Origin: Sulfurimonas aquatica | Lineage (GTDB): Bacteria > Campylobacterota > Campylobacteria > Campylobacterales > Sulfurimonadaceae | Length of the DNA stretch: 64,000 nt | Direction of reading: 5' to 3' | NCBI RefSeq assembly: GCF_017357825.1 | Contig: NZ_CP046072.1 | Span: forward strand, 1,860,001-1,924,000 | Part shown: positions 446-18,093 of the stretch, in pieces | Position numbering within the stretch: position 1 is the stretch's first letter | How the letters are laid out: the number at the start of each line of letters is the position of its first letter | Notes under the pieces: generated by a model | Database searches by the model: none | The model's input: only the letters and a program-made list of their open reading frames with translations | Told to the model about the DNA's origin: nothing | Translations under genes and position numbers: made by a program

Positions 446-477
446 ATTGTAACAACTACTTGTGACAGCTTGTGTCA
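446..477 (-). promoter_or_regulatory. Operator/promoter 1 of the island regulon
   Basis: Read leftwards, 477-463 is TGACACAAGCTGTCA, a perfect TGACA-N5-TGTCA inverted repeat. It is followed after 11 nt by a TACAAT -10 (451-446). It serves the partial gene at 1-419. The operator sequence is identical to the copy at 12854-12868. No -35 hexamer is evident, and the palindrome covers the place where it would be. Confidence 0.8.
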
Positions 478-487
478 TAAACATAAA

Positions 488-519
488 TGACGCAAGCTGT
501 CATTTTATCTGAGTATACT
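488..519 (+). promoter_or_regulatory. Operator/promoter 2 of the island regulon
   Basis: TGACGCAAGCTGTCA at 488-502 has one mismatch in the left half-site. A TATACT -10 follows at 514-519, again 11 nt away. It drives the small gene at 548. The two operators in this divergent region face opposite ways, and their asymmetric CAAGC core follows the direction of transcription. Confidence 0.8.
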
Positions 520-772: not shown

Positions 773-804
773 TGACATAAGCTGTCACTTTTATCTACTA
801 TAAT
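773..804 (+). promoter_or_regulatory. Operator/promoter 3 of the island regulon
   Basis: TGACATAAGCTGTCA at 773-787 is a perfect inverted repeat. A consensus TATAAT -10 follows at 799-804, 11 nt downstream. It drives the two-gene unit at 832-2976. Confidence 0.85.
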
Positions 805-1230: not shown

Positions 1231-2976
1231 ATGGGACATGGTTGTTGCAATGAGATACTAACGCATAGTGATAGAGTTTATGCTCTCAAAGAAGCGAACG
1301 AACTCGCTATTAGGATTGCTGATGAGATGACACAAGAGAATTATCATATATTTGTAACACGGGACTACTATAACAGAAAAGTGCATTGGAGGATGGCCGA
1401 AGGTGCTAACTTGGATAATAACTGGATAACTTACATAGCCATTAAAAAGAACTATGGTCTTGATGTTTTCATACATAGTAGCGATGAAAAGATTAGAGCT
1501 GCAGTTGGAGCACAAGGTTACCAATCTTCTGTACTTATTAATGATAAAAGTGCCTTAGTTCGTGCTGGAGTGGCACAGTCTGGATATGATCTAAAAAAAC
1601 TTATAAATGATGAAGAACCGGTAGTGCGTTGTGCAGTGGCGAAACAAGGTTACGGTCTTGATATATTGATAAGCGATGAAAACGATAGAGTACGTCGTAC
1701 GGTGGCCGAACAAGGATATAAAACTGAGATTTTAGTAAATGATAAAAGTCCAAGTGTCCGAACTGGTTTGGCAAAATCAGGATACGAGCTCAAAACCCTC
1801 ATGCTAGATGGTGATTCTAATGTTAGTCGTGCAGCAAGAGAGGAGTCTCTTAAAAAGATAGTCCATTGTGAGAACGATGAGGAAGCACTAAAAGCACTTA
1901 CATATATTGTGAATTTACCGCCTATCTCAGATGTTAACATTCCAGGACTTTGGCTAAACAATATGGTTATAGATGAAGATATAGCCATTGACATTATAAA
2001 TAAAGGGTACTGTTTGTCGTACTTTATCAATAGTAATAGCTCAAAAATAAGAGCTACTGTTGCCAAACAAGGGTATTGTTTAGATGTATTGATAAATGAT
2101 AAAGATCCAAAAGTACGTAGCGAGGTCGCTAAGCAAGGGTATGGACTTGATATACTTATTCATGATGAAGATTATTGGGTGCGTGTTGATGTTGTAAAAC
2201 AAGGCTATGGTCTAGACATTTTAGTAAAAGACACATCCTCTCAAGTTCGTGAGTGTATCGCCGATCAAGGTTATGGACTAGACATTCTACTCTACGACAA
2301 AGACTATGATGTTCGTAAAGCAGTCGCACGACAAGGATATGGGCTTGATACATTGGTATACGACGAAAATGAATATGTACGTGATGAAGTAGCTAGACAA
2401 GGATATCGCCTTGATATACTAGTAAAAGATAAAGATAGCTATGTAAAAAAAGCTGTGATTTCTCAAGGATATTGCTTGGAGAATCTTCTTTACGACAAGG
2501 GATATGGTGTTTCCAGTGATGCTTTAGAAGTAATTGCAGAGCAAGCCTCTAATATGAACGAAGTAGTAAAAATAGTTGACTCCGTTATGCAGACCATTCC
2601 TGATTTTATTGAAAAACTTCATGAAACAACTTGCATAAATCTGATGAATATGGGATTTCCCTTGAGCTATTTCATGAAACACAAACATCGATATGTCATT
2701 AATGCACTTGTTGATAGAGGATATGAACTAAAGACCTTTATACACGATGATAATTATCAAACTAAACAGTTTGCAATTCGTAAATTATTAGACAGTTGTA
2801 AAGATGCAGATGAAGTTACAGTAATTGTTAAAGAAGCTTTAAAAGTTGATTCTAATTATATGAATAAAATTGGCCTGGATGATTGCACCAAATTCATAGA
2901 CAAAGGATGTCCTTTGAAGTACTTTTCAAACAGCCGCTATATAACTATTCAAGATCTAATAAGAGCTCAACTGTGA
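1231..2976 (+). CDS. Helical-repeat protein with 22-residue HEAT/LRV-like repeats
   Basis: A 581-residue protein built largely of degenerate repeats of about 22 residues, with the pattern QGYGLDxLxxDxxxxVRxxV. One block covers about residues 60-205 and a second, more regular one about 265-430, with diverged copies beyond. The Val-Arg, Val-Ala, Gly-Tyr and Leu-Asp positions recur as in HEAT or variant leucine-rich repeats, suggesting an alpha-solenoid for binding protein or nucleic acid. The first 60 residues, including an HGCCNE segment, are not repetitive. No signal peptide or catalytic motif is visible. It forms an operon with the gene at 832, and its stop codon overlaps the next operator at 2974. 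The role is unknown; a scaffold or recognition function is inference. Confidence 0.8.
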   Translation: MGHGCCNEILTHSDRVYALKEANELAIRIADEMTQENYHIFVTRDYYNRKVHWRMAEGANLDNNWITYIAIKKNYGLDVFIHSSDEKIRAAVGAQGYQSSVLINDKSALVRAGVAQSGYDLKKLINDEEPVVRCAVAKQGYGLDILISDENDRVRRTVAEQGYKTEILVNDKSPSVRTGLAKSGYELKTLMLDGDSNVSRAAREESLKKIVHCENDEEALKALTYIVNLPPISDVNIPGLWLNNMVIDEDIAIDIINKGYCLSYFINSNSSKIRATVAKQGYCLDVLINDKDPKVRSEVAKQGYGLDILIHDEDYWVRVDVVKQGYGLDILVKDTSSQVRECIADQGYGLDILLYDKDYDVRKAVARQGYGLDTLVYDENEYVRDEVARQGYRLDILVKDKDSYVKKAVISQGYCLENLLYDKGYGVSSDALEVIAEQASNMNEVVKIVDSVMQTIPDFIEKLHETTCINLMNMGFPLSYFMKHKHRYVINALVDRGYELKTFIHDDNYQTKQFAIRKLLDSCKDADEVTVIVKEALKVDSNYMNKIGLDDCTKFIDKGCPLKYFSNSRYITIQDLIRAQL

Positions 2977-3005
2977 CACAACCCGTCACTTTTCTCCATT
3001 ATAAT
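2974..3005 (+). promoter_or_regulatory. Operator/promoter 4 of the island regulon
   Basis: TGACACAACCCGTCA at 2974-2988 has one mismatch in the right half-site and overlaps the stop codon of the preceding gene. A consensus TATAAT -10 lies at 3000-3005, 11 nt away. It is the likely promoter of the 3113-9381 operon with the STAND gene. Confidence 0.8.
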
Positions 3006-4291: not shown

Positions 4292-4565
4292 GCTAGGCAA
4301 CATAATGAAAGCGCAACAAGAATTAAAAATGATACTTGAAGATTTGTCTCCAGATAACATAGGTGAGACTACAGCCAATAATCTCAATGAATTGTTTAGT
4401 GTGTTTAACGATGCTTACATTTTAAGAAGTAAAAATGGAAAATATGAACTTAAAGAGATAGAAGAGATATATGAAAAATGTTTTGTAATTCTCAAGAGAG
4501 AGTACAGTCGAAAGTTTATCTCTTGTATGGCTACTACGATGATGTTCCAAGAGAAAGAAGAATAG
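4284..4565 (+). CDS. Small hypothetical protein between 392-aa gene and STAND gene
   Basis: A 93-residue, mostly helical and acidic protein. Its ATG overlaps the end of the previous gene and is preceded by AAGGA; an alternative in-frame ATG at 4302 would remove six residues. The only cysteines lie in the C-terminal half. No domain is recognised. The overlap with the upstream gene suggests translational coupling. The STAND gene follows after about 105 nt, so the product could be an adaptor or an inhibitor of that protein, but this is speculative. Confidence 0.65.
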   Translation: MTRLGNIMKAQQELKMILEDLSPDNIGETTANNLNELFSVFNDAYILRSKNGKYELKEIEEIYEKCFVILKREYSRKFISCMATTMMFQEKEE

Positions 4566-4671
4566 TTTATACTATTTTCGGTAGTATTTCACTACAAGAA
4601 TCAATTATAAAAAACAAATAATAAGAAAATATCAATGAATGAAGTGGCTATAAAGCTTAATGAGGAATCCA

Positions 4672-7600
4672 GTGAACAATACAAAAACATTTAGACTATT
4701 TATATCATCAACTTTCAGTGACTTCCAACTTGAACGTCGAGTCTTACATGAGAAGGTCTTTCCAGAGATAGACAAGCATTGTACGGAACAAGGATATCAG
4801 TTCCAACCCGTTGACCTGCGCTGGGGTGTTAACAATGAAGCACAACTTGATCAAAAAACTCTAGAGTTATGTCTCAACGAAGTTCGTGCTTGTAAGCACT
4901 TCCCTCATCCAAACTTTCTTATAATGCTCGGAAACCGTTATGGATGGGTATCTCTTCCTTATGCTATTAAAAAGAGTGAGTTTGAGAGTATCCTAGACTT
5001 TTATACAAATAACTCTAGTGCTCTTCAACTATTAAATGAATGGTACATCGAAGATAGCAATCATCTCATAGAAGATTTACATGCCTATGTACTAAAGCCG
5101 AGAGAACCTAAAGGAGCATATGCAGACTGGCAAGATTGGGAAAAGCTAGAGAATGAACTTCGTGCACTTCTTCAAGATGCCGCCAATGCACTTTTCAAAG
5201 GAACACCACAATATACCAAATACTTTCTCTCAGCCACAGAAGCAGAAGTCCAAGAGGGGATATTCAAGTATCTTCAACCTACCAAGTTTCAACTAGAAAT
5301 GCAAGAAGAATATACTGAAATCTCTGAAATCGATCAGGACTATGTCTATGGATTTGTCCGTAGCATCAACGATCATGAAACAGCAGACCTTTCAAACGAA
5401 CCTGCAAAGTCATTCATCGACAAAGACCAAACAAATGTCACTAACTTTAAAAAAGAACTTATTGAAAATACCCTAAATAAATCTAACCTTCTTCCAGCAG
5501 ATGTTACCCTCAGTGGGGATATAAATAACCCATTCACAGATAAGAGCTATCTTTTAGAGTTTGAGACCTTTATGATAGATAAGCTCAAGCTTGCAGTAAA
5601 TAAACAGATAGCAGAAGCACAAGAAATCTCACAGCTTACTCAAGAGAGAAGTGAGCAGCAAAGATTTCAGAGTTTAAAGACAAAGGTCTTCTTTGGAAGA
5701 GAAGAAGAATTAGAAGTAATTCAAAAGTATATAGATAGTGACAATACTCAACCTTTCATTGTCCATGGTGTCTCAGGCATAGGTAAGTCATCATTTATGG
5801 CTAAAGTAATTGAGCAGACAGAAGAGGCACTAATATATACAATTGCTGATCGCTTTATTGGTGTTACTTCATCCTCATCAAACACGAGAGCATTACTAGA
5901 GTCTCTAATCAATGACCTTGCGGCACAAAAAGTTCTAGTACTACCAGAGACTTTAAAACAAGATAATAATCAATTCAACCAACAAGTAAAAGAACTTCTA
6001 CTAACAATAGAAAAGCCTACAGTGATAATACTAGATGCTCTAGATCAACTTCAAAACAAAGACTACTTACAGTGGCTACCACTTGAGTTACCCTCAAACC
6101 TAAAGATCATTCTCTCTATGTTAGATCAAAAAGGGTATGAACATTACTATGACCTTTTAAAGAATAAACTTGATAAAAAAAACCAACTAAATATCGAAGC
6201 ACTAAATGATGCTGCTGCAACACAGACACTCAAAAGCTTACTTAAAAAAGAAAAGCATTCACTAACACCACAGCAGTTTGAGTATACACTTGAGAAATTT
6301 AGAGAAAGTAAGAGTTCTCCACTTTACCTCAAGATAGCATTTGAAGAGGTAAAGACATGGAAGAGTACGGATACAAATGAAGAACTTAGAGTTGGTATAC
6401 AAGAGGTTATAAAAGAGTTTATTGACAACCTCACTGAAAAATACCACCATTCCCCAAAAATAGTACATAAACTTTTAGGACTTATATACGCATCCAAAAA
6501 TGGTCTGAGTGAAAAGGAAATACTTGACCTTCTAAGCCGTGATGAATCAATACTTACTGATCTTGAGGAGTTTAATAAACTTGACCTCACTATAGATGGT
6601 GAGACAGTACGACGATTTCCCATCTCAATATGGGCAAGACTGCATGAACAGTTAAAACCTTTTATCAATGAGAGAACAATTGATAATCAAAATCTCATAT
6701 CATTTTTCCACAGACAAATAGATGAAGCAGTACATAACTGTATATATAAAGAGAATTCTCAGCTGTTACATAAAGAACTAGCCGATTACTTCTTGACACT
6801 GCAAGATAAAGATAAACTTTGGGATAAACGCTATTACAATCTTCACATGTTGGAAGAGACTCCATACCAACTCTTTCATGCAAAAGATGGCAAAAGACTA
6901 AAAGAGATTCTGATTGATCTTGAATTTTCTGGAAGTGTTTATAATAACCATAAGGAAGAGACCTTTACAGAGGTACTCGAAAAAGCTGTAGAAATTGATG
7001 GTATTACTGATGATGAGATTGACTCATGGAAAAAGTTTTTTCTTGAAAAAGCACACCTTATTACTGGGGTGGATGGAATTAACTGGAGGGCTAGTCAATC
7101 TTTGTTTCAGTTAGCTTATGAAGATGGAGACAACTCTCCTCTAAGCCATAATGCAGAACAGCTACTTGAGAAAGATAGAGTAGATTTTTTATGGTTAAAA
7201 AAGAGGAATAGACCTAAAAAGTTTAAAAGAACTGGATTGTTAAAGGTTTTAGAGGGGCATTCTGATACTATATTTGGTACAGAAATATTCAAAGATGGAA
7301 GGATACTCTCTTATTCAGTAGATAATACCTTAAGACTATGGGATTCTGAAGGTGAGCCTTTAAGAATTTTAGAAGGGCATACCAGTGCTGTAAAGGGTGC
7401 AAAGATTCTAGAAGACGGAAAGATACTCTCTTATTCACGAAATGAGACTCTGAGACTATGGAGTTCTGAAGGTGAGGCTTTGAGAATTTTAGAAGGGCAT
7501 ACTTATATTGTAAGCGGAGTAGAGATTCTAGAAGATGGAAGAATACTCTCTTATTCTGCTGATAATACTTTAAGACTCTGGAGTTCTGAAGGTGAGGCTT

Positions 7601-9381
7601 TGAGAATTTTAGAGGGGCATACCAGTGCTGTAAAGGGTGCAAAGATTCTAGAAGACGGAAAGATACTCTCTTATTCAGAGGATAATACTTTAAGACTATG
7701 GAGTTCTGAAGGTGAGCCTTTAAGAATTTTAGAGGGGCATACTGATTATGTAAGTGGTGTAAAGATTCTAGAAGACGGAAGAATACTCTCTTATTCTGCT
7801 GATAATACTTTAAGACTCTGGAGTTCTGAAGGTGAGCCTTTGAGAATTTTAGAGGGGCATACTGGTTTTGTAAATGGTGTAGCGGTTCTAGAAGATGGAA
7901 GAATACTTTCTTATTCAGGTGTAGCGGTTCTAGAAGATGGAAGAATACCCTCTTATTCAAAGGATAAAACTTTAAGACTATGGAGTTCTGAAGGTGAGCC
8001 TTTAAGAATTTTAGAAGGGCATACCAGCACTGTAAAGGGTGCAAAGATTCTAGAAGATGGAAGAATACTCTCTTATTCTGCTGATAATACTTTAAGACTA
8101 TGGAGTAATGAGGGAAAAGCTTTAGCTGTTTTAGAGGGGCATACTAGTTATGTAAATGGCATAGAGATTCTAGAAGATGGAAGAATACTCTCTTATTCTG
8201 CTGATAATACCTTAAGACTCTGGAGTTCTGAAGGTGAGCCTTTGAGAATTTTAGAGGGGCATACTGGTTTTGTAAATGGTGTAGCGGTTCTAGAAGATCG
8301 AAGAATACTTTCTTATTCTGCTGATAATACTTTAAGACTCTGGAGTAATGAAGAAAAAGCTTTAGCTGTTTTAGAGGGACATACTGATCATGTAAGTGGT
8401 GCAGAGATCTTAGAAGATGAAAAGATACTTTCTTACTCATGGGATAAAACTTTAAGACTCTGGAGTTCTGAAGGTGAGCCTTTAAGAATTTTAGAAGGGC
8501 ATACTAGTTTTGTAAATGGTGCAAAGGTTCTAGAAGATGGAAGAATACTCTCTTATTCAGAGGATAATACTTTAAGACTATGGAGTTCTGAAGGTGAGCC
8601 TTTAAGAATTTTAGAAGGGCATACCAGTGCTGTAAAGGGTGCAAAGATTCTAGAAGACGGAAAGATACTCTCTTATTCAAAGGATAAAACTTTAAGACTA
8701 TGGAGTAATGAAGGAAAAGCTTTAGCTATTTTAGAGGGGCATACTAGTTATATAAGTGGTGCAAAGATTCTAGAAGATGGAAGAATACTCTCTTATTCTG
8801 TTGATAAGACTTTAAGACTATGGAGTTCTGAAGGTGAGCCTTTGAGAATTTTAGAGGGACATACTGATAATGTAAGTGGTGCAAAGATTCTAGAAGATGG
8901 AAGGATACTCTCTTACTCATGGGATGATACTTTAAGACTATGGAGTTCTGAAGGTGAGCCTTTAAGAATTTTAGAAGGGCATACCCGTGCTGTAATTGGT
9001 GCAAAAATTCTAGTTGACGGAAGAATACTCTCTTACTCAAGTGATGTGACTTTAAGACTATGGAGTAATCAAGGAAAAGCTTTAGCTGTTTTAGAGGGGC
9101 ATACTGGTTTTATAGATGGTGCAAAGATTCTAGAAAATGGAAGGATACTCTCTTGTTCATATGATAAGACTCTAAGACTCTGGAGCAATGAAGGTGAAAA
9201 ACTGTGTCTATGGAATATTGCAGTTGAAAGTATATCCTTTAATAAGGTTACTGAAAAATCATTTCTAGCCCTCTCAGATAAATATTTACTTATCTATGAT
9301 TTTTATGATGGTAATGAAGCAATATCTATAAATGTACTTGCCAAAGAACTTGAAAACTCTTTATATGAAGATGGGATATAG
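4672..9381 (+). CDS. NLR-like STAND protein: DUF4062, NACHT NTPase, WD40 repeats
   Basis: A protein of 1569 residues. I prefer the GTG at 4672 over the ATG at 4660: AGGA (4663-4666) sits five bases before it, and the product then starts directly in the DUF4062 signature (RLFISSTFSDFQLER). DUF4062 covers about residues 5-115. A STAND/NACHT-type NTPase follows, with Walker A GVSGIGKSS near 366-374 and Walker B VIILDALDQ near 450-458. A helical region runs to about 855. Sixteen 40-residue WD40 repeats follow to about 1510, then one degenerate repeat. The same architecture occurs in animal NWD1-like proteins, and bacterial STAND NTPases (Avs and bNACHT proteins) are known phage sensors. Here the WD40 domain would sense and the N-terminus would signal or act. 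A defence role is inferred from family and context. Confidence 0.9.
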   Translation: MNNTKTFRLFISSTFSDFQLERRVLHEKVFPEIDKHCTEQGYQFQPVDLRWGVNNEAQLDQKTLELCLNEVRACKHFPHPNFLIMLGNRYGWVSLPYAIKKSEFESILDFYTNNSSALQLLNEWYIEDSNHLIEDLHAYVLKPREPKGAYADWQDWEKLENELRALLQDAANALFKGTPQYTKYFLSATEAEVQEGIFKYLQPTKFQLEMQEEYTEISEIDQDYVYGFVRSINDHETADLSNEPAKSFIDKDQTNVTNFKKELIENTLNKSNLLPADVTLSGDINNPFTDKSYLLEFETFMIDKLKLAVNKQIAEAQEISQLTQERSEQQRFQSLKTKVFFGREEELEVIQKYIDSDNTQPFIVHGVSGIGKSSFMAKVIEQTEEALIYTIADRFIGVTSSSSNTRALLESLINDLAAQKVLVLPETLKQDNNQFNQQVKELLLTIEKPTVIILDALDQLQNKDYLQWLPLELPSNLKIILSMLDQKGYEHYYDLLKNKLDKKNQLNIEALNDAAATQTLKSLLKKEKHSLTPQQFEYTLEKFRESKSSPLYLKIAFEEVKTWKSTDTNEELRVGIQEVIKEFIDNLTEKYHHSPKIVHKLLGLIYASKNGLSEKEILDLLSRDESILTDLEEFNKLDLTIDGETVRRFPISIWARLHEQLKPFINERTIDNQNLISFFHRQIDEAVHNCIYKENSQLLHKELADYFLTLQDKDKLWDKRYYNLHMLEETPYQLFHAKDGKRLKEILIDLEFSGSVYNNHKEETFTEVLEKAVEIDGITDDEIDSWKKFFLEKAHLITGVDGINWRASQSLFQLAYEDGDNSPLSHNAEQLLEKDRVDFLWLKKRNRPKKFKRTGLLKVLEGHSDTIFGTEIFKDGRILSYSVDNTLRLWDSEGEPLRILEGHTSAVKGAKILEDGKILSYSRNETLRLWSSEGEALRILEGHTYIVSGVEILEDGRILSYSADNTLRLWSSEGEALRILEGHTSAVKGAKILEDGKILSYSEDNTLRLWSSEGEPLRILEGHTDYVSGVKILEDGRILSYSADNTLRLWSSEGEPLRILEGHTGFVNGVAVLEDGRILSYSGVAVLEDGRIPSYSKDKTLRLWSSEGEPLRILEGHTSTVKGAKILEDGRILSYSADNTLRLWSNEGKALAVLEGHTSYVNGIEILEDGRILSYSADNTLRLWSSEGEPLRILEGHTGFVNGVAVLEDRRILSYSADNTLRLWSNEEKALAVLEGHTDHVSGAEILEDEKILSYSWDKTLRLWSSEGEPLRILEGHTSFVNGAKVLEDGRILSYSEDNTLRLWSSEGEPLRILEGHTSAVKGAKILEDGKILSYSKDKTLRLWSNEGKALAILEGHTSYISGAKILEDGRILSYSVDKTLRLWSSEGEPLRILEGHTDNVSGAKILEDGRILSYSWDDTLRLWSSEGEPLRILEGHTRAVIGAKILVDGRILSYSSDVTLRLWSNQGKALAVLEGHTGFIDGAKILENGRILSCSYDKTLRLWSNEGEKLCLWNIAVESISFNKVTEKSFLALSDKYLLIYDFYDGNEAISINVLAKELENSLYEDGI
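7240..9201 (+). repeat. Array of sixteen 120-bp near-identical WD40-coding repeats
   Basis: Sixteen tandem in-frame units of 120 bp encode 40-residue WD40 repeats with the invariant cores LEGHT, GRILSYS and TLRLWS. Unit 6 is 162 bp long because of a 42-bp internal duplication (7876-7917 and 7918-7959). Variation between units clusters at unit positions 9-10, 12, 14-15 and 27-29, while the framework stays almost fixed. Such internal identity implies recent expansion or ongoing homogenisation by recombination. Confidence 0.9.
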
Positions 9382-10342: not shown

Positions 10343-11653
10343 GGTAGTGTTCAATAATCTGTGTCAGTATCGAGTAATTCCTAAAATTGTATCATAAATT
10401 AAGAGCTTTATCTAATCTCCCCTCAAAGTGAATTGAGAGTTGAGAGATAGTTAAGCTCCAGTTTCTAACTGGCATAGTCCATTTTTTTGAGGCATTCTGG
10501 ATGCCCATATAGAGTAATTTTAATAAGCTATTATCATTAGGGAAAGCACCTTTAGTCTTAGTCAGTGTTCTGAACTGTCGATGCACAGACTCAATGATAT
10601 TGGTGGTATAGATTACTTTTCTAATATCAGCTGGATATTTAAAATATACAGACAGATTATCCCATTTATTTCTCCAAGAAGTAAAAACGATTGGATATTT
10701 TTTACCCCATTTTTCTTCAAGCTTATCGAGTTCAATTTCAGCTTCTTCTTTCGTAAAGGCTTGATAGACTTTCTTCAACTCTTTTGCGAACTGCTTTTGA
10801 TTAGCGGAACCTACATATTTAAGTGAATTTCGGATTTGATGAACAATACAGAGTTGTACTTCTGTGTCAGGATAGACTGAGTTTATGGCTTCAGGAAAGC
10901 CTTTTAAACCATCAACGGAAGCGATGAGTATATCTTTAACACCACGATGAGATAAATCAGTAAGTACCTGTAGCCAGAACTTAGCACCTTCACTCTCATT
11001 GAGATAGAGACCAAGTATCTCTTTCTTCCCATCAATGCCGACACCGAGAACGGTATAAAATGCTTTTGAGATATATCTTCCATCCTCTTTTACTTTATAG
11101 TGAATCGCATCTAAAAATATAAAAGGATATACTTCTTCAAGAGGACGAACTTTCCACTCTTGAAGCATAGGTATTATTTTATCTGTTACTGTACTGATTG
11201 CACCCTTAGAAAAGCCTACACCGTAAATATCTTCGATAAGCTTTGCTATTTGAGAGTAGCTGTTACCATGAGAGTAAAGAGCAAGTATTTTATCTTCTAT
11301 CTCACCTGACATAGTTCGTTGATTTTTCTTTACAATCTCAGGCTCAAAACTACCACTACGGTCTCTTGGAACATCAAGTTCAAATTCACCATGTTCACTT
11401 TTCATAGTTTTAGTGGCATAGCCATTTTTACGGTTCTTTGAGATATCTTGTGTTAAATGGGAATCTATTTCTGCGGAGAGAGCAGCTTCTGTAAGTTGCT
11501 TTATTAAAGAGCTTAATGCTCCATCTTTACCACTGATACTCTTACCAGCCTTTATATCACGAGCAAATTGCTCTGCATCTATTTCTATCTTCATCTGTGT
11601 GTCCTTGAGTAATTGTTATTTTACCCGATTGACACAGATTTTTAAACGGTCCC
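10343..11653 (-). mobile_element. IS256-family insertion sequence, copy 1
   Basis: A 1311-bp element with imperfect terminal inverted repeats (GGGACCGTTT... at the right end and GGTAGTGTTC... at the left end, both running into TCTGTGTCA). The 8-bp target duplication GTATAGTC lies at 10335-10342 and 11654-11661. It carries one transposase gene read leftwards. It inserted 18 bp upstream of operator 5. The duplication differs from that of copy 2, so this is an independent insertion. Confidence 0.95.
10392..11594 (-). CDS. IS256-family (mutator-type) transposase, copy 1
   Basis: A 400-residue transposase that catalyses cut-and-paste or copy-out transposition with a DDE catalytic triad. Family signs are FLDAIHYKVKEDG (first Asp), LIASVDGLKGFPEAI (second Asp), VQLCIVHQIRNSL, and the C-terminal TTNIIESVHRQFRTLTK segment with the catalytic Glu. 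The length is typical of intact IS256 transposases. The sequence is identical to the copy at 15620, so both elements are probably functional or very recently so. Confidence 0.95.
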   Translation of the reverse strand: MKIEIDAEQFARDIKAGKSISGKDGALSSLIKQLTEAALSAEIDSHLTQDISKNRKNGYATKTMKSEHGEFELDVPRDRSGSFEPEIVKKNQRTMSGEIEDKILALYSHGNSYSQIAKLIEDIYGVGFSKGAISTVTDKIIPMLQEWKVRPLEEVYPFIFLDAIHYKVKEDGRYISKAFYTVLGVGIDGKKEILGLYLNESEGAKFWLQVLTDLSHRGVKDILIASVDGLKGFPEAINSVYPDTEVQLCIVHQIRNSLKYVGSANQKQFAKELKKVYQAFTKEEAEIELDKLEEKWGKKYPIVFTSWRNKWDNLSVYFKYPADIRKVIYTTNIIESVHRQFRTLTKTKGAFPNDNSLLKLLYMGIQNASKKWTMPVRNWSLTISQLSIHFEGRLDKALNL

Positions 11654-11671: not shown

Positions 11672-11703
11672 TGACAGAACATGTCATCTATCTAATTTAT
11701 ACT
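11672..11703 (+). promoter_or_regulatory. Operator/promoter 5 of the island regulon
   Basis: TGACAGAACATGTCA at 11672-11686 is a perfect inverted repeat. A TATACT -10 follows at 11698-11703, 11 nt away. It drives the Dsb-like gene at 11735. IS copy 1 ends only 18 bp upstream but leaves the site intact. Confidence 0.85.
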
Positions 11704-11734: not shown

Positions 11735-12277
11735 ATGAAAAAACTTTTTTTACTTTTTTTACTATCATTAAATATTTTCGCTCTAGAAAAGCTAAATATT
11801 AATGACTCAAGCTTATCAGATGACTCCCAAGCTCTGTTAGAATCTATATCTAACTATGCCATTAAAGTTGGCAATGGATCTTTTTGTAAAACTTATATCT
11901 TTATAGATCCAATGTGCCCATATTCTCAAAAATATATCCAGCAAATCACTAAAAACAAAAAGGCTCAAGAAGTAAACAGCTATTATATATTTTTATATAA
12001 ACTACCGAAGTTTAATTCAAATAAGTTATTGCAACATATCTACCAATCATCTAATCCAGTTGAAACGCTTAAAAAGGTAATGATTAAGCATCAAGATGTC
12101 AACTTAGATGAAGTAGTAATAGATGCTGATATACAAACTAAGATTAATAGCATCGCCAGTGTCGCTTCTAGTCTCAAGATCACTGTACGTCCATATGTCA
12201 TGGCGTTTCAAAAGGGATCAAAATACTGCACAGTCTCCTCTGGCCCTGCTCCTTGCTTAGAAGAGAATGACTTCTAA
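11735..12277 (+). CDS. Periplasmic thioredoxin-fold (DsbA/DsbC-like) protein
   Basis: A 180-residue protein with a clear N-terminal signal sequence (residues 1-17, KK followed by Leu/Phe-rich core, cleavage after FALE or nearby). The thioredoxin-like region has FIDPMCPYSQ with Cys61 in a CPYS motif instead of CxxC, and a cis-Pro loop TVRPYV later in the chain. Other cysteines are at about 51 and two near the C-terminus. This suggests a thiol reductase or isomerase-like protein of the periplasm that would act by a monothiol mechanism or simply bind. AAAAGG lies upstream of the ATG. It is controlled by operator 5, which is unusual for a housekeeping Dsb gene. Confidence 0.75.
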   Translation: MKKLFLLFLLSLNIFALEKLNINDSSLSDDSQALLESISNYAIKVGNGSFCKTYIFIDPMCPYSQKYIQQITKNKKAQEVNSYYIFLYKLPKFNSNKLLQHIYQSSNPVETLKKVMIKHQDVNLDEVVIDADIQTKINSIASVASSLKITVRPYVMAFQKGSKYCTVSSGPAPCLEENDF

Positions 12278-12402
12278 TAATAAAGCGGAATAATATTTTA
12301 AATTTAAAAGGTTGAGAGTAAGATTCATAATATTGCTCTTCTATCAAATAAAATAAAAGTGTTTCTTTTGGAAAACACATCGGTCGAGAAAGAAATGAAG
12401 TT

Positions 12403-12702
12403 TTATGAAAGTTGAAAAATTACTTCTCTAATAAAATTAATATCCTTCTTATTTAACTTCTTTGTATCTATAGTTAAAACTCCATGTGCTAAAAAGCCTC
12501 CATACTCTTCTTCATAAGTTCTATAGCCATTAACTTCTAGTTTTACTTGTGGGATTTTCTGTCTTAGAATTGGGTAGACACTATCAACTAATTCACCAAC
12601 TTCCCATGGCTCCATATCCATATTGATGTGCAAAATAGTATCTCCCACATCGTAATTAAGCTCTTCTAAAAAAGACTCTATACTTATGATTAAACTAGCC
12701 AT
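12403..12702 (-). CDS. Hypothetical protein, operator-controlled
   Basis: A 99-residue acidic soluble protein read leftwards. It has an alternating hydrophobic pattern (SLIISIESFLEEL, then VKLEVNGYRTYEEEYGGF) that suggests a small alpha/beta domain. The ATG at 12702 is preceded by AAAGA-type sequence. The promoter with operator 6 lies at 12775-12806. It is convergent with the Dsb-like gene and divergent from the VirD4-like gene. No family is recognised. Confidence 0.6.
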   Translation of the reverse strand: MASLIISIESFLEELNYDVGDTILHINMDMEPWEVGELVDSVYPILRQKIPQVKLEVNGYRTYEEEYGGFLAHGVLTIDTKKLNKKDINFIREVIFQLS

Positions 12703-12774
12703 GTTCTTGTCTTTTCTTTCATATCTAATCCTTTACATTATTTGTTTTAACTCAAAGAGCAACTTCTAATTTAG

Positions 12775-12806
12775 AGTATAAAATATAGAGATGACAGGTT
12801 ATGTCA
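12775..12806 (-). promoter_or_regulatory. Operator/promoter 6 of the island regulon
   Basis: Read leftwards, 12806-12792 is TGACATAACCTGTCA, a perfect inverted repeat. TATACT follows at 12780-12775 after 11 nt. It serves the gene at 12403-12702. It forms the second divergent operator pair of the island, with operator 7. Confidence 0.85.
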
Positions 12807-12853
12807 CTTTACAAATTTGCAATGAACTATATAAGTCTATATAGTTCTCAAAA

Positions 12854-12885
12854 TGACACAAGCTGTCACAACATCTAAATATACT
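12854..12885 (+). promoter_or_regulatory. Operator/promoter 7 of the island regulon
   Basis: TGACACAAGCTGTCA at 12854-12868 is a perfect inverted repeat identical to operator 1. TATACT follows at 12880-12885 after 11 nt. It drives the VirD4-like ATPase gene and probably the WYL regulator gene behind it, which would make the regulator autoregulated. Confidence 0.85.
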
Positions 12886-12915
12886 CTTTTCATGAACCAA
12901 CAAAAAGGATAAACA

Positions 12916-14544
12916 ATGGCTAACATGGGTTTTATACAAACAAGAGAACCAGAGACTTGTTTAGAAGATCTAATAATGGTTCCAGAAACATTTACTCACT
13001 CTATCGCGTTTGGACAAACAGGTTGTGGAAAAACATCTAGCTTTATCTACCCAAATCTTAAAAATAGACTTGAGCTTGGACATGGGATTTTAGTTTATGA
13101 CTACAAAGGAAAAGAGCACTTTAGTGTTAAAGTTTTAGCAGAGTCTCTTGGTAGACTTGATGATGTAGTTGAGATAGGAAAACCATGGGGTAAAAGTATA
13201 AATATAATTCAAAATATGGATGAGGACGAACTAGACAAATTCTTTTCAAATATATTAAGTCATGGTAAGGATGGTAAGTACTGGGAAAACAGTGCTAAAT
13301 CACTTGGACAAAGTGTACTAAAGGTTTTAAAGTCTGTAGAGGACTTTTGTATAGAGTACGAATCAATTGAAACTGATGAAAAAGAAAGATCTGCACTGAA
13401 GTCAAAAATATCGGTTCCAACAAAAAAAACTATTGCTTCTTTAGTAGAAATTTGTTCTACTTTTGAAAATCTATGTGACTTTATAAATAAACTCGAAAAA
13501 ACTCAGCGACATATGGAAAACCTGATAGAGGAGAGCTTACAAAAGAATTTAAAAGAGACCCAAGATATTAAGTTGTTAAAACAAAAATACACAAGACTAA
13601 TACGAGAAAAAGAGAAGTTTAAAACTGTACTAGAGGATACTCAAGTTTCCTTAGATAGCTTTGGTAAGGACTCAAATGAAAATCTCACTCAAAATATCAT
13701 GGGTTCGTTAATCTCTCCATTAGTGAGTCTTTCACAAAATATTATGTTTAATACTAATTCATTCGACATTGCATCAGCTTTAAACCAAGGTAAGATCATC
13801 GTTGTAAATGTAGAGTCTATGTCTGATGTTGTAGTGGAAAGTTTAAACAACACCATACTTTATGAACTAAGCAAACGCACAAATAAGATGAACCTGCATC
13901 CCATCTCTATATTTATAGACGAGATTCAAAGAGTAGTAAGTAAAAACTCTGACTTGCCTATAGATGTTTTTAGAGAGGCAAAAGTCGACTTAATACTTGC
14001 TACTCAAAACTCTGCTCTACTTAAAGATAAACTTGAAGATGAAAAGTTTGAAGCTCTAATGGGAAATCTAACCCAAAAATATTACTTTAAAAGTTCTAGT
14101 GATGAAGAGATAAACTCTATAAACGAATTAAGAGTCCTAGAAGGTTTCGAGTATCTTTGCTCAAGTGATGACTATTCTAAAGTTCAGTGCTCTACTCCAA
14201 TATTTATAACAGAATCTGAAAAACTGAAAATAGAGTATAAATATCAAAAAGAACTTAAAGTACTATTTCATTTTTTATATGTGCAACAAGATAAACCTTA
14301 TGTACTAAATTATGACGCGAGACTTTTTAAAAGTAAGAAAGTGATTGCAATAAACATCAAAACATTCAAAGAAAGTATAGAGGATTCAATGTCCCACTAT
14401 GATTATTCAGATCTCTCTTGTGAAGTCGATTTTTTATTTAAGAAAACAATGAAACTTATGGATAAATATCCTTCTGTTGAGATTGATAAGAGCAGTTTAC
14501 TTTTAGACTCTATGGATTTTGAAGAGGAACTTCGCATAGTATAA
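12916..14544 (+). CDS. VirD4/TraG-like P-loop ATPase without membrane segment
   Basis: A 542-residue ATPase. Walker A FGQTGCGKTSS lies at about residues 32-42, followed by ILVYDYKGKEHF as in coupling proteins. Walker B ISIFIDEIQRVV lies at about 330-341, and LILATQNSALLKDKL beyond it matches the sensor region of TraG/VirD4 proteins. A charged helical insertion of roughly 60 residues lies near 195-255. Unlike conjugative coupling proteins it has no N-terminal membrane helices, and no relaxase or type IV secretion genes are nearby. A role as a DNA translocase or pump in a defence or mobile-element system is more likely than conjugation; this is inference. The WYL regulator follows after 61 nt. 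Confidence 0.85.
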   Translation: MANMGFIQTREPETCLEDLIMVPETFTHSIAFGQTGCGKTSSFIYPNLKNRLELGHGILVYDYKGKEHFSVKVLAESLGRLDDVVEIGKPWGKSINIIQNMDEDELDKFFSNILSHGKDGKYWENSAKSLGQSVLKVLKSVEDFCIEYESIETDEKERSALKSKISVPTKKTIASLVEICSTFENLCDFINKLEKTQRHMENLIEESLQKNLKETQDIKLLKQKYTRLIREKEKFKTVLEDTQVSLDSFGKDSNENLTQNIMGSLISPLVSLSQNIMFNTNSFDIASALNQGKIIVVNVESMSDVVVESLNNTILYELSKRTNKMNLHPISIFIDEIQRVVSKNSDLPIDVFREAKVDLILATQNSALLKDKLEDEKFEALMGNLTQKYYFKSSSDEEINSINELRVLEGFEYLCSSDDYSKVQCSTPIFITESEKLKIEYKYQKELKVLFHFLYVQQDKPYVLNYDARLFKSKKVIAINIKTFKESIEDSMSHYDYSDLSCEVDFLFKKTMKLMDKYPSVEIDKSSLLLDSMDFEEELRIV

Positions 14545-14605
14545 ATATTTTCAAGTATTTAGAAGTAAAATTTAACTATCCTACTATTAAAAAAATGGAG
14601 ATGAG

Positions 14606-15538
14606 ATGGAAGGAAGTGACCACGATAAATATTTATCAAGAATAAGCTTAATGATGGACTATTTAGCTATAAATGGACCTACTCATATGAAGGTTTTAGC
14701 CGAAGAGTATGGAACTTCTGAACGTACAATTAGAAGAGACATTGATGAAAGGCTTCACTTTTTTCCAATAGAGATAAAAAGAGGGATTGTTACTCTAGAA
14801 GAAGGCTTTAACTTAGATGACAAATCCCTTAGAGAAAATGAGCTTCTTATTACAGAATTAGCGTTAAATAGTATAAAGGGCATTGACGAGGTAGTGGACA
14901 AAACTCTTCACACTGTTAGAGCAAAGCTTTCATACCCACTTTTTTTTAGCCCGTATAATCTTAAAGCCGAACTCTATGAACCTATAAATATGAACTCCGA
15001 ACTATTAAACAAAATAGAAGACGCTATCACTAATCGTAATGTCTCTAGTATCAAAAGTAATGATTTAACATCATCTATAGACCCTTATAAGGTAGTTGCC
15101 TTTGATGGTATCTGGTACCTATTTGCAAAAGATAGAAATGACATGAAAATAAAAACCTATTTAATTTCAAATATACAAGAATTTCGAGCGTCAACAAAAG
15201 TATACTCAACTACACATGTTAATACAGATGAACTTTTAGAAAACGTACATACAGCTTGGTTTGAAGATGGCAATAGTTTTGATGTAACTGTTAAAGTTAA
15301 AAAAGAGATTGCTCACTACTTTGAACTAAAAAAACACCTTTCATCTCAGGAAATTATAAAAAAGAATGTTGATAGTTCCATCATCGTTAAGTTTAGTGTT
15401 AGCTGTGATGAAGATGTGGACAACCTCATTAAAGCATGGCTACCACACATAGAAGTAATCAAGCCTGAAAGATTTAGAAAAAAACTTATCAGTGAACTTG
15501 AATTATATGTAAAAGAGTTAAAAAACTATACTCTTTAA
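14606..15538 (+). CDS. WYL-domain transcriptional regulator
   Basis: A 310-residue protein with an N-terminal DeoR/HTH_11-type winged helix (about residues 10-60, GPTHMKVLAEEYGTSERTIR). A WYL domain follows, centred near 150-195 and containing the signature GIWYLFAKD, then a C-terminal WCX-like extension to 310. WYL proteins bind nucleic-acid or nucleotide ligands and control many phage-defence loci (BrxR and CapW are studied examples). TGGAGATGAG precedes the ATG. It lies 61 nt after the ATPase gene without its own promoter, so it is probably transcribed from operator 7. It is the only recognisable DNA-binding regulator in the island and the best candidate for the TGACA-N5-TGTCA sites. Confidence 0.9.
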   Translation: MEGSDHDKYLSRISLMMDYLAINGPTHMKVLAEEYGTSERTIRRDIDERLHFFPIEIKRGIVTLEEGFNLDDKSLRENELLITELALNSIKGIDEVVDKTLHTVRAKLSYPLFFSPYNLKAELYEPINMNSELLNKIEDAITNRNVSSIKSNDLTSSIDPYKVVAFDGIWYLFAKDRNDMKIKTYLISNIQEFRASTKVYSTTHVNTDELLENVHTAWFEDGNSFDVTVKVKKEIAHYFELKKHLSSQEIIKKNVDSSIIVKFSVSCDEDVDNLIKAWLPHIEVIKPERFRKKLISELELYVKELKNYTL

Positions 15539-15560
15539 TCTAATAGCTGAAGTTTTATCT

Positions 15561-16871
15561 GGGACCGTTTAAAAATCTGTGTCAATCGGGTAAAATAACA
15601 ATTACTCAAGGACACACAGATGAAGATAGAAATAGATGCAGAGCAATTTGCTCGTGATATAAAGGCTGGTAAGAGTATCAGTGGTAAAGATGGAGCATTA
15701 AGCTCTTTAATAAAGCAACTTACAGAAGCTGCTCTCTCCGCAGAAATAGATTCCCATTTAACACAAGATATCTCAAAGAACCGTAAAAATGGCTATGCCA
15801 CTAAAACTATGAAAAGTGAACATGGTGAATTTGAACTTGATGTTCCAAGAGACCGTAGTGGTAGTTTTGAGCCTGAGATTGTAAAGAAAAATCAACGAAC
15901 TATGTCAGGTGAGATAGAAGATAAAATACTTGCTCTTTACTCTCATGGTAACAGCTACTCTCAAATAGCAAAGCTTATCGAAGATATTTACGGTGTAGGC
16001 TTTTCTAAGGGTGCAATCAGTACAGTAACAGATAAAATAATACCTATGCTTCAAGAGTGGAAAGTTCGTCCTCTTGAAGAAGTATATCCTTTTATATTTT
16101 TAGATGCGATTCACTATAAAGTAAAAGAGGATGGAAGATATATCTCAAAAGCATTTTATACCGTTCTCGGTGTCGGCATTGATGGGAAGAAAGAGATACT
16201 TGGTCTCTATCTCAATGAGAGTGAAGGTGCTAAGTTCTGGCTACAGGTACTTACTGATTTATCTCATCGTGGTGTTAAAGATATACTCATCGCTTCCGTT
16301 GATGGTTTAAAAGGCTTTCCTGAAGCCATAAACTCAGTCTATCCTGACACAGAAGTACAACTCTGTATTGTTCATCAAATCCGAAATTCACTTAAATATG
16401 TAGGTTCCGCTAATCAAAAGCAGTTCGCAAAAGAGTTGAAGAAAGTCTATCAAGCCTTTACGAAAGAAGAAGCTGAAATTGAACTCGATAAGCTTGAAGA
16501 AAAATGGGGTAAAAAATATCCAATCGTTTTTACTTCTTGGAGAAATAAATGGGATAATCTGTCTGTATATTTTAAATATCCAGCTGATATTAGAAAAGTA
16601 ATCTATACCACCAATATCATTGAGTCTGTGCATCGACAGTTCAGAACACTGACTAAGACTAAAGGTGCTTTCCCTAATGATAATAGCTTATTAAAATTAC
16701 TCTATATGGGCATCCAGAATGCCTCAAAAAAATGGACTATGCCAGTTAGAAACTGGAGCTTAACTATCTCTCAACTCTCAATTCACTTTGAGGGGAGATT
16801 AGATAAAGCTCTTAATTTATGATACAATTTTAGGAATTACTCGATACTGACACAGATTATTGAACACTACC
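15561..16871 (+). mobile_element. IS256-family insertion sequence, copy 2
   Basis: A 1311-bp element that, in the parts I compared, is identical to copy 1 but inverted. The 8-bp target duplication TTTTATCT lies at 15553-15560 and 16872-16879. It inserted into the last codons of the TerB-like gene at 17234 and 22 bp beyond the stop of the WYL gene. Confidence 0.95.
15620..16822 (+). CDS. IS256-family (mutator-type) transposase, copy 2
   Basis: A 400-residue transposase whose protein sequence is identical to that of copy 1. It has the same DDE landmarks (FLDAIHYK, LIASVDGLKG, IESVHRQFR) and full length. GGACACACAG lies before the ATG. The identity points to recent transposition within this genome. 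Confidence 0.95.
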   Translation: MKIEIDAEQFARDIKAGKSISGKDGALSSLIKQLTEAALSAEIDSHLTQDISKNRKNGYATKTMKSEHGEFELDVPRDRSGSFEPEIVKKNQRTMSGEIEDKILALYSHGNSYSQIAKLIEDIYGVGFSKGAISTVTDKIIPMLQEWKVRPLEEVYPFIFLDAIHYKVKEDGRYISKAFYTVLGVGIDGKKEILGLYLNESEGAKFWLQVLTDLSHRGVKDILIASVDGLKGFPEAINSVYPDTEVQLCIVHQIRNSLKYVGSANQKQFAKELKKVYQAFTKEEAEIELDKLEEKWGKKYPIVFTSWRNKWDNLSVYFKYPADIRKVIYTTNIIESVHRQFRTLTKTKGAFPNDNSLLKLLYMGIQNASKKWTMPVRNWSLTISQLSIHFEGRLDKALNL

Positions 16872-17319: not shown

Positions 17320-17351
17320 TGACATATGCTGTCACAAACTAAAAGTAATAT
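17320..17351 (+). promoter_or_regulatory. Operator/promoter 8 of the island regulon
   Basis: TGACATATGCTGTCA at 17320-17334 is a perfect inverted repeat. TAATAT follows at 17346-17351 after 11 nt. It drives the amidohydrolase gene at 17377, the last island gene before the tRNA. Confidence 0.8.
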
Positions 17352-17376: not shown

Positions 17377-18093
17377 ATGATTTTACATATTCCACACTCC
17401 TCTACAGATACATTAGATTATAAGTTTTTACATAAAGAGCGAGAACTGCTTCGCATGACAGATCACTATACTGATGATCTATATGGATGTGCTGATGCTA
17501 AACGAGTTGTCTTTGAGTTAAGTCGTCTTGTATGTGATGTTGAGCGATTTCAGGATGATGAACAAGAGCCAATGAGCCGTTTTGGTATGGGTGTTTGCTA
17601 TACCAAAAACAGTGAGGGGAATAAACTGCGTGTCGTCACTGATGCAAATAAAGAGTACATAATTTCAAACTACTATATTCCCCATCATCATGAGTTAAGT
17701 AGTGCAGTAGACGATGAGTTAGCTCATAGCACAAAAGCCTTGATAATCGATTGTCATAGCTTTCCAGACAAGGCATATCGTTTCAATAATGACTTTAATC
17801 AAAAAAGACCAGACATATGCATAGGAACAGATAGCTACCACACGCCTAAAGGACTACTAGAGGAGACAAAAAAATATTTTCTCTCAAAAGGATATGTAGT
17901 CCAAGTCAACAAGCCCTACTCCGGTTCAATCGTTCCAATGAAGCATTATAAAAAAGACAAAAGAGTTTTATCTATTATGATTGAGATTAACCGTAAACTT
18001 TATATGGATGAGCATGGATTTAAAACTGAACATTATGAAGACTTAAAAGAAGAAATACATGAGCTTCTAATCCATTTAAATCATTTATATTAA
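17377..18093 (+). CDS. N-formylglutamate amidohydrolase family protein
   Basis: A 238-residue protein starting at the ATG at 17377 (MILHIPHSS), which has AAAGG just upstream. The longer frame from 17326 would begin inside the operator and is rejected. Family landmarks are IPHSS near the N-terminus, VCDVERFQDD near residue 50, and LIIDCHSFPDK in the middle. These are the metal and substrate residues of Zn-dependent N-formylglutamate deformylases (HutG-like). The usual role is the last step of one histidine-degradation route, but no hut genes are near. Control by the island operator suggests another substrate or purpose. Confidence 0.85.
   Translation: MILHIPHSSTDTLDYKFLHKERELLRMTDHYTDDLYGCADAKRVVFELSRLVCDVERFQDDEQEPMSRFGMGVCYTKNSEGNKLRVVTDANKEYIISNYYIPHHHELSSAVDDELAHSTKALIIDCHSFPDKAYRFNNDFNQKRPDICIGTDSYHTPKGLLEETKKYFLSKGYVVQVNKPYSGSIVPMKHYKKDKRVLSIMIEINRKLYMDEHGFKTEHYEDLKEEIHELLIHLNHLY

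Follow-up and report, generated by a model that had tools for sequence, protein, structure and literature searches.

The locus considered here raises the question of which promoters are read by a WYL-domain protein encoded in a genomic island of Sulfurimonas aquatica, and whether the protein switches these promoters on or off. The window, i.e. the whole stretch of 64,000 nucleotides that was analysed, starts at C1:1860001 of the source genome (designated G000), and the WYL gene lies in its first quarter (Table 1). The initial annotation had proposed that this WYL protein is the probable master regulator of at least seven promoters carrying TGACA-N5-TGTCA sites, and that it acts as a repressor like BrxR and CapW. 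The analysis described below agrees with the breadth of this proposal and probably reverses its sign. The WYL protein very probably binds the sites and is probably a homodimeric activator of the DriD/PafBC type, which would co-activate roughly a dozen promoters spread across an island of 60 kb.

Sites at a fixed distance from the -10 box

A whole-genome search revealed 13 exact copies of TGACA-N5-TGTCA in the 2.85-Mb genome versus 2 for the reversed control; one-mismatch sites were sought in selected stretches only. Ten of the 13 copies are located inside a 59-kb island (C1:1818375-1877334), which begins 42 kb before the window, and lie within 60 kb of the WYL gene (binomial 4.5e-12, with uniform placement as the null). 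The window contains six exact sites (463, 773, 11672, 12792, 12854 and 17320) and two one-mismatch sites with an identical promoter layout (488 and 2974), giving eight window promoters. The three exact sites outside the island (C1:1482012, 1621768 and 1622680) are about 250-390 kb away from the WYL gene.

The sites share the layout TGACA-N5-TGTCA-N11-TANNNT towards the next gene. At position +11 behind the 13 exact sites, TANNNT is present in 11 and NANNNT in all cases. When the flanks were rotated, TANNNT was found at this place 1.35 times on average and eight times at most, and none of 20,000 rotations reached 11. The near-consensus box TATA[AC]T occurs at +11 in eight of the 13 sites and in none at the offsets 0-10 and 12-35. 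Counted by box gap, the exact sites gave 11 matches at a gap of 11 bp (10 sites, one of them read both ways) and 0 to 4 at other gaps. The same +11 layout is shared by the one-mismatch sites at 488 and 2974 of the window and at C1:1819859 and C1:1625718. With a 17-bp spacer, the -35 hexamer would fall inside the site and read CANNNN; all sites are located at one distance from the -10 box and over a poor -35 position. The signal lies in the exact copies and in their fixed distance to the -10 box.

One of the exact sites precedes the gene pair of the regulator itself. The site at 12854-12868 stands 47 bp ahead of the ATG of a gene for a VirD4-like ATPase, which is separated by a gap of 61 bp from the WYL gene. 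The two genes probably form one operon because the site is located ahead of the VirD4-like gene and no terminator-like site was found in the region 12300-15900, in line with the early proposal that the WYL gene sits behind a site-driven ATPase gene. A sigma-70 scan of the same region returned 12 promoter-like sites versus 14.8 in shuffled sequences, none of which uses the -10 box at 12880. The ATPase also matches the VirD4-like NCBIfam family conju_CD1115 (E 1.4e-10, under the cut-off of that family), and an orthologue with 59% identity occupies the equivalent place in the locus L007 of genome G164. The operon is flanked by two inverted insertion sequence (IS) copies with a Mutator-family transposase (10343-11653 and 15561-16871), which are 100% identical over 1311 bp. 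A composite transposon carrying the VirD4-WYL pair between the copies was considered and rejected, because each copy has its own 8-bp target duplication (GTATAGTC and TTTTATCT, identified by eye from the flanks). For the same reason, the copies look like independent recent insertions.

Linkage of sites and spacers to WYL genes

Among 135 genomes of the genus, a close WYL orthologue (E<=1e-60) is present in 13. Six genomes have exact sites in the vicinity of their WYL gene: ten in G000, six in G077 and two each in G164, G135, G152 and G070. All 24 WYL-linked sites carry NANNNT at +11 towards the next gene, and 19 of them carry TANNNT; the remaining five boxes (both of G152, both of G070 and one of G077) read AATAAT, AACAAT or AATACT. 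In G077, which consists of one contig, six of the seven sites are located within 50 kb of the WYL gene (binomial 1.6e-8, same null). The individual promoters are also conserved. In L007, whose WYL protein is 64% identical, the VirD4-WYL promoter has the identical 15-mer at the equivalent position (8278 of L007), and the site ahead of the AAA_5/MoxR pair is kept at the equivalent place in L007 (7461) and L086 (7516). In L007, a second site with one mismatch (7485) follows 24 bp from the first, and the corresponding spacing in the window is 25 bp.

The remaining seven orthologue-bearing genomes (G153, G140, G165, G035, G171, G181 and G020) have no exact site in the neighbourhood of the WYL gene. 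G153 and G140, whose WYL genes lie on contigs of 4 kb and 23 kb, each have a one-mismatch site before an IMPase gene adjoining the WYL gene. The WYL proteins of the other five genomes share 35-40% identity with the protein studied here, and no recurring alternative palindrome was found around them. Position 44 in the recognition helix is arginine in the seven aligned orthologues with sites (G153 with one-mismatch sites beside its WYL gene) and lysine, threonine or asparagine in six divergent orthologues with no excess of sites in their neighbourhoods, the sixth being the lysine-bearing protein of G044, which lies outside the genus.

Distant WYL genes were also inspected. Three queries retrieved 59 distinct WYL genes, and their 1.5-kb flanks were scanned with a grid of spacers and gaps for GACA-N-TGTC before TANNNT; reading frames shorter than 150 amino acids (aa) were left out. 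The 268-kb background comprised the positions 20001-64000 of the window and 37 loci lacking any WYL match, among them IMPase and response-regulator loci. The arrangement GACA-N6-TGTC-N12-TANNNT was found in 18 matches, i.e. 16 sites of which two are read both ways, at 12 of the 59 WYL genes. At the other six gaps, the N6 form had 1 to 6 matches in the WYL flanks, and in the background it had none at any gap. The background is a fair control for the N6 form only: the N5 form at gap 12 had 12 matches in the WYL flanks versus 16 in the background, which is inflated because the IMPase loci carry N5 sites. A wider GAC-GTC grid over 53 loci, which include overlapping duplicates, gave the same peaks. 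In the N6 sites, the half-site proximal to the -10 box keeps its distance and the distal half-site is shifted by 1 bp. The N6 sites constitute a second class of WYL promoters in the genus and the order. Sites of this kind, often reading GACATAAAG[AC]TGTC at equal distance from the -10 box, were seen in the loci L025, L014, L018, L036 and L202.

A maximum-likelihood tree was constructed from 55 of the 59 proteins after filtering for 260-400 aa and removing frames with stops, and its rows were labelled by using the looser NANNNT box. One clade of 29 rows (support 99/98) accommodates 15 of the 16 rows with N6 sites, and eight of nine rows with N5 sites lie outside this clade. The N6 label requires nine changes on the tree versus 14.1 in shuffles, none of 500 being as low, in a test that is inflated by related rows. 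The N6 spacer thus follows the WYL protein while the proximal half-site stays at one distance, which suggests that the WYL protein is likely the reader of the sites. Together with the clusters at orthologues in five other genomes, these subfamily-specific spacers support the early view of the WYL protein as a probable regulator of many promoters.

Activator, repressor or another reader

The protein itself provides further hints at its mode of action. HTH_DeoR, WYL and WCX domains are all detected above the Pfam cut-offs, in agreement with the helix-turn-helix (HTH) protein predicted at first, and the protein is the sole Pfam WYL match of the genome at E<=1e-3; a profile alignment search of the genome added only a weak 33-residue stretch on C2. 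An AlphaFold2 model of middling confidence (mean pLDDT 69.8, pTM 0.34) has linker helices, at low confidence, at residues 77-114 and a recognition helix near residues 39-49, which includes R40 and R44. In a Foldseek search with this model, the ranks 1-15 were taken by PafBC and DriD (E 3.5e-12 to 2.2e-9), including full-length matches to DriD, and BrxR and CapW followed from E 6.7e-8 onwards.

WYL activators with a related promoter layout have been described. In the available excerpts of the respective papers, PafBC promoters are given as tTGTCRgtg-8nt-TannnT, i.e. TGTCR-N11-TANNNT (PMC5656591), and PafBC is activated by single-stranded DNA (ssDNA) and acts at a -26 element through sigma adaptation (PMC11804915); activation from the -26 region is likewise known for SiwR (PMC10693628). 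The shared features are the TGTCR element followed after 11 bp by TANNNT and the two outward-facing arginines of the PafB recognition helix, R44 and R48, which are four residues apart (PMC6789036, in the part available) and are probably equivalent to R40 and R44 here. In contrast to PafBC, which is a heterodimer at a non-palindromic site, there is a single WYL gene according to Pfam and a palindrome. PafBC itself binds its promoter only in combination with RNA polymerase. A further WYL activator is DriD of Caulobacter crescentus. According to excerpts of a preprint (PMC12340889), DriD recognises the consensus ATACGAC-N7-GTCGTAT, and the sites in its promoters are located at equal distance from the -10 box and over a poor -35 position. 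Like the WYL protein, DriD has a winged HTH, a helical linker, WYL and WCX in one chain. Moreover, TGACA-N5-TGTCA contains the GAC-N7-GTC core of the DriD pseudopalindrome, and in both systems several promoters with a poor -35 keep a constant -10 distance, the comparison concerning the constancy and not the value in bp. As far as the preprint excerpts go, the systems differ in the flanking bases (AC/GT in DriD, T/A here) and in the regulon, which comprises DNA-damage genes for DriD and is predicted to be an island of conflict genes here.

By analogy with these activators, the winged helix of a WYL homodimer would bind the GACA...TGTC half-sites at about -38 to -24. The dimer would sit over the poor -35 position, at a fixed distance from the -10 box, and help the housekeeping RNA polymerase to start at promoters lacking a good -35. 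In this way, the island genes for MoxR-like AAA, vWA-like, double-AAA FtsH-like protease, NACHT/WD40/TIR and VirD4-like ATPase proteins would be co-activated, as would a few distant genes and the VirD4-WYL operon itself, resulting in positive feedback. A nucleic-acid signal, perhaps ssDNA, may be sensed by the WYL domain. The residues do not support ssDNA as the ligand because PafB R181 falls on Ser156 when positions are counted ungapped from the WYL motif; R208 falls on Lys183, which is invariant in 13 aligned rows.

Activation is favoured because the promoter layout is that of PafBC and DriD and because these activators are the best Foldseek matches; thus, an activator appears more likely than a repressor. 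Under the repressor reading, the WYL protein would occupy the -35 region like BrxR or CapW until a signal from phages or damage releases it. BrxR and CapW are indeed linked to defence (PMC9122601; PMC9122588), and BrxR, as described in the available part of its paper, represses by binding inverted repeats. As in these systems, a WYL regulator with an inverted-repeat site (the latter as for BrxR) and autoregulation is found in a defence-type island. The -35 region would be covered by the palindrome, and the promoters could fire unaided, as many of their -10 boxes are near the consensus. A second structural aligner, VIA-align, showed no preference, with BrxR on top: BrxR and CapW reached Z 10.7-12.3 over 156-165 residues and PafBC and DriD Z 9.0-12.0, with full-length DriD chains and one PafBC chain aligned over 237-250 residues, all matches having a high root-mean-square deviation. 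However, a repressor operator needs no exact distance to the promoter, yet 24 of 24 sites keep one across different genes and six genomes, and the N6 subfamilies hold the -10-proximal half-site in place and move the distal one. Moreover, R-BOX1 of BrxR (on pEFER) lies immediately downstream of its promoter, one of two BrxR boxes that the available text mentions on the plasmid (PMC9122601), whereas each of the ten exact island sites precedes its -10 box by an exact distance. We therefore regard repression as unlikely, and the BrxR/CapW-like mode of the initial annotation as probably the wrong sign.

The sites could also be read by another protein, with the WYL protein as a passenger. The best candidate is the OmpR-type response regulator at C1:1819906-1820598, which together with a 7TMR-DISM histidine kinase (G000:C1:1818503-1820598) is encoded in the island ahead of the window; a one-mismatch site with TACACT at +11 (C1:1819859) precedes the histidine kinase gene. 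Its presence also qualifies the early claim that the WYL protein is the sole DNA-binding regulator of the island, which holds for the domain matches inside the window and fails for the 42-kb upstream part. Orthologues of the response regulator occur in G000, G084, G176 and G001, where composite sites are found no more than about 7 kb away in each case, and three of these four genomes lack a close WYL orthologue; likewise, about 11 bp separate the end of the PhoB box from the -10 box. OmpR-family sites are usually direct repeats, and 131 of the 135 genomes lack a match to the candidate at E<=1e-40, including G077, G164, G135, G152 and G070, whose WYL genes are surrounded by sites. Nor does it account for the N6 sites at distant WYL genes. 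It was rejected as the general reader, with matches in only four of the 135 genomes, and it is quite improbable that a protein other than the WYL protein reads the sites. It is more improbable still that no single regulator is involved and that the sites are chance occurrences or a mobile promoter cassette copied with gene modules. This would fit with the window having no excess of sites with up to two mismatches (37 versus 33.4 expected), and with 3 of 19 composite matches in genomes without a close WYL orthologue being intragenic in coding sequences and looking accidental (G010, G007 and G149). It does not fit with the spacing statistics, with the retention of sites before different gene families or with the tracking of the WYL subfamilies.

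Besides the top rank of BrxR in VIA-align, the middling confidence of the model, Ser156 and the OmpR-type regulator in the island, several observations weigh against activation of these promoters by the WYL protein. A PDB sequence search with the WYL family profile at E 0.01 gave no match, DriD included. Taken by itself, the N5 label shows no clustering on the tree (8 changes versus 8.6, 176 of 500 shuffles as low), in part because the count was confined to 1.5 kb around the gene and missed island sites farther away. Furthermore, chance alone makes the bare N5 site frequent, and 83 of 119 genomes have at least one copy. Some genomes without a close WYL orthologue have 4-7 bare sites scattered over their contigs versus none for the control; the counts of G026 (7), G017 (5) and G079 (5) rival those of the WYL genomes. 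The composite TGACA-N5-TGTCA-N11-TANNNT is more selective, with 44 matches in 18 of the 135 genomes versus 4 control matches. Twenty-five of these are in 6 of the 13 genomes with a close WYL orthologue, and 19 are in 12 of the 122 others. A core, TGACANAAGCTGTCA, was tried as a sharper marker and rejected, as it occurs in 11 of the 135 genomes, namely in 4 of the 13 with and 7 of the 122 without a close WYL orthologue.

The WYL profile is matched at E<=1e-4 in 71 of the 135 genomes and in 8 of the 12 composite-bearing genomes without a close WYL orthologue; in G083 the match covers only the HTH and in G081 only the last 43 positions, and in G142 the composite site is flanked by a 767-aa gene on one side and a distant WYL gene on the other. 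G001, G017, G028 and G149 have composite sites and no WYL-profile match at this threshold. Perfect sites are found 42-43 bp ahead of VirD4 and IMPase genes in both G001 and G017, and G001, which is 94% complete, is the main contrary evidence. Sites without a WYL gene thus occur in a few incomplete genomes (G001, G017 and G028), which weakens the assignment to the WYL protein and does not overturn it. The IMPase genes give a mixed picture. Orthologues are present in 24 of the 135 genomes; exact sites precede six of them (G001, G017, G164, G138, G077 and G124), four with TANNNT at +11 and those of G138 and G124 with TGTACT and TGCACT. One-mismatch sites precede four (G027, G009, G153 and G140), 12 have no such site and two (G142 and G033) are cut by the contig end. 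The IMPase gene of S. aquatica itself (C1:1036449-1037249) has no site.

The island and its predicted regulon

The eight window promoters and the principal genes behind them are compiled in Table 1.

Table 1 Predicted WYL-type promoters and associated genes in the window (positions 5' to 3' on the forward strand)
Feature	Position	Strand	Site	Gap	-10 box	Downstream genes or support
WYL-type promoter	446..477	-	TGACACAAGCTGTCA	11 bp	TACAAT	AAA_5 (MoxR-like)/vWA-like pair
Divergent partner site, one mismatch	488..519	+	TGACGCAAGCTGTCA	11 bp	TATACT	64-aa open reading frame (ORF) 548-742
WYL-type promoter	773..804	+	TGACATAAGCTGTCA	11 bp	TATAAT	832-1197 (121 aa) and HEAT-repeat ORF 1231-2976
WYL-type promoter, one mismatch	2974..3005	+	TGACACAACCCGTCA	11 bp	TATAAT	3113-4291, 4284-4565, 4660-9381
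AAA NTPase with WD40 repeats (NLR-like), predicted regulon member	4660..9381	+				Pfam WD40, AAA_16
WYL-type promoter	11672..11703	+	TGACAGAACATGTCA	11 bp	TATACT	Thioredoxin-like ORF 11735-12277
WYL-type promoter	12775..12806	-	TGACATAACCTGTCA	11 bp	TATACT	99-aa ORF 12403-12702
WYL-type promoter of VirD4-WYL	12854..12885	+	TGACACAAGCTGTCA	11 bp	TATACT	VirD4-WYL
VirD4/TraG-like P-loop ATPase, first operon gene	12916..14544	+				Pfam TraG-D_C above cut-off
WYL-domain regulator, 310 aa (winged HTH, helical linker, WYL, WCX)	14606..15538	+				Pfam HTH_DeoR, WYL, WCX
WYL-type promoter	17320..17351	+	TGACATATGCTGTCA	11 bp	TAATAT	N-formylglutamate amidohydrolase-like ORF
FGase-family protein	17377..18093 (17377 likely start)	+				PF05013

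The MoxR-like/vWA-like pair extends leftwards from 455 to -2407 relative to the window. Its 464-aa protein matches AAA_5, and the 492-aa partner has the motif DMSGSMG, recognised by eye, and no vWA match in Pfam. The thioredoxin-like label relies on a weak Pfam match. A copy of the FGase-family protein with 67.5% identity is encoded behind a site in L087. A TerB-like protein (PF05099; 16857-17234) is encoded behind the second IS copy and ahead of the FGase promoter, and a related ORF is present in G077 (L084).

Upstream of the window, the exact site at C1:1856047 precedes a second VirD4-like gene, whose Pfam match is just below the cut-off, and the site at 1854298 precedes a cluster of a 179-aa ORF and an FtsH-like gene, which continues towards NACHT-TPR and TIR genes. 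Further sites are located before a 189-aa ORF ahead of a 1665-aa ORF (1835467) and before a second FtsH-like gene (1818375). The FtsH-like proteins have two AAA domains, with Pfam AAA_2 followed by AAA and Peptidase_M41 (L001:5781-8324 and L003:5582-8491); their match to NCBIfam FtsH_fam is below the cut-off. Matches of PADLOC in the island are at the domain level only, and the island genes may serve in the defence against phages. Outside the island, near-identical tandem genes for lipoprotein-like proteins (C1:1621262-1622695) each have an exact site with CATAAT or AATAAT at +11, and a second histidine kinase/response regulator pair adjoins them. The exact site at C1:1482012, which is separated by about 390 kb from the WYL gene, has the box TATAAT at +11 and is followed by a 376-aa ORF without a Pfam match.

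The gene content resembles the FtsH-type MoxR-vWA ternary conflict systems as described in the available text of Kaur et al. 2020 (PMC7159879), with which the island shares a double-AAA FtsH-like protein, TIR and NACHT-type proteins, a radical-SAM gene and a candidate pair of MoxR-like AAA and vWA-like proteins. Unlike the systems in this text, the island also has a VirD4-like ATPase and a WYL regulator; the whole word WYL occurs there just once, in the reference list. In the titles and abstract openings listed by searches of the open-licence literature, no description of this WYL-controlled, multi-promoter defence island in Sulfurimonas or the Campylobacterota was found.

The Campylobacterota are not known to possess LexA. 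It is conceivable, although we consider this tentative and less probable than not, that they use a family of WYL activators as an alternative to SOS control, which would act island-wide by sigma adaptation. On the same tentative footing, WYL subfamilies might read GACA...TGTC with their own spacer of 5 or 6 bp, at one fixed distance from a -10 box, and sense nucleic acids arising from phages or damage; the 60-kb regulon of the WYL protein studied here would then comprise at least ten promoters. If the activator model is correct, a whole defence-type island would be governed by one WYL activator, as opposed to the local WYL repression described for BREX. Moreover, WYL specificity would become testable through spacer swaps, and the promoter code of half-site, spacer and -10 gap would allow WYL regulons to be read from the sequence in this group of bacteria.

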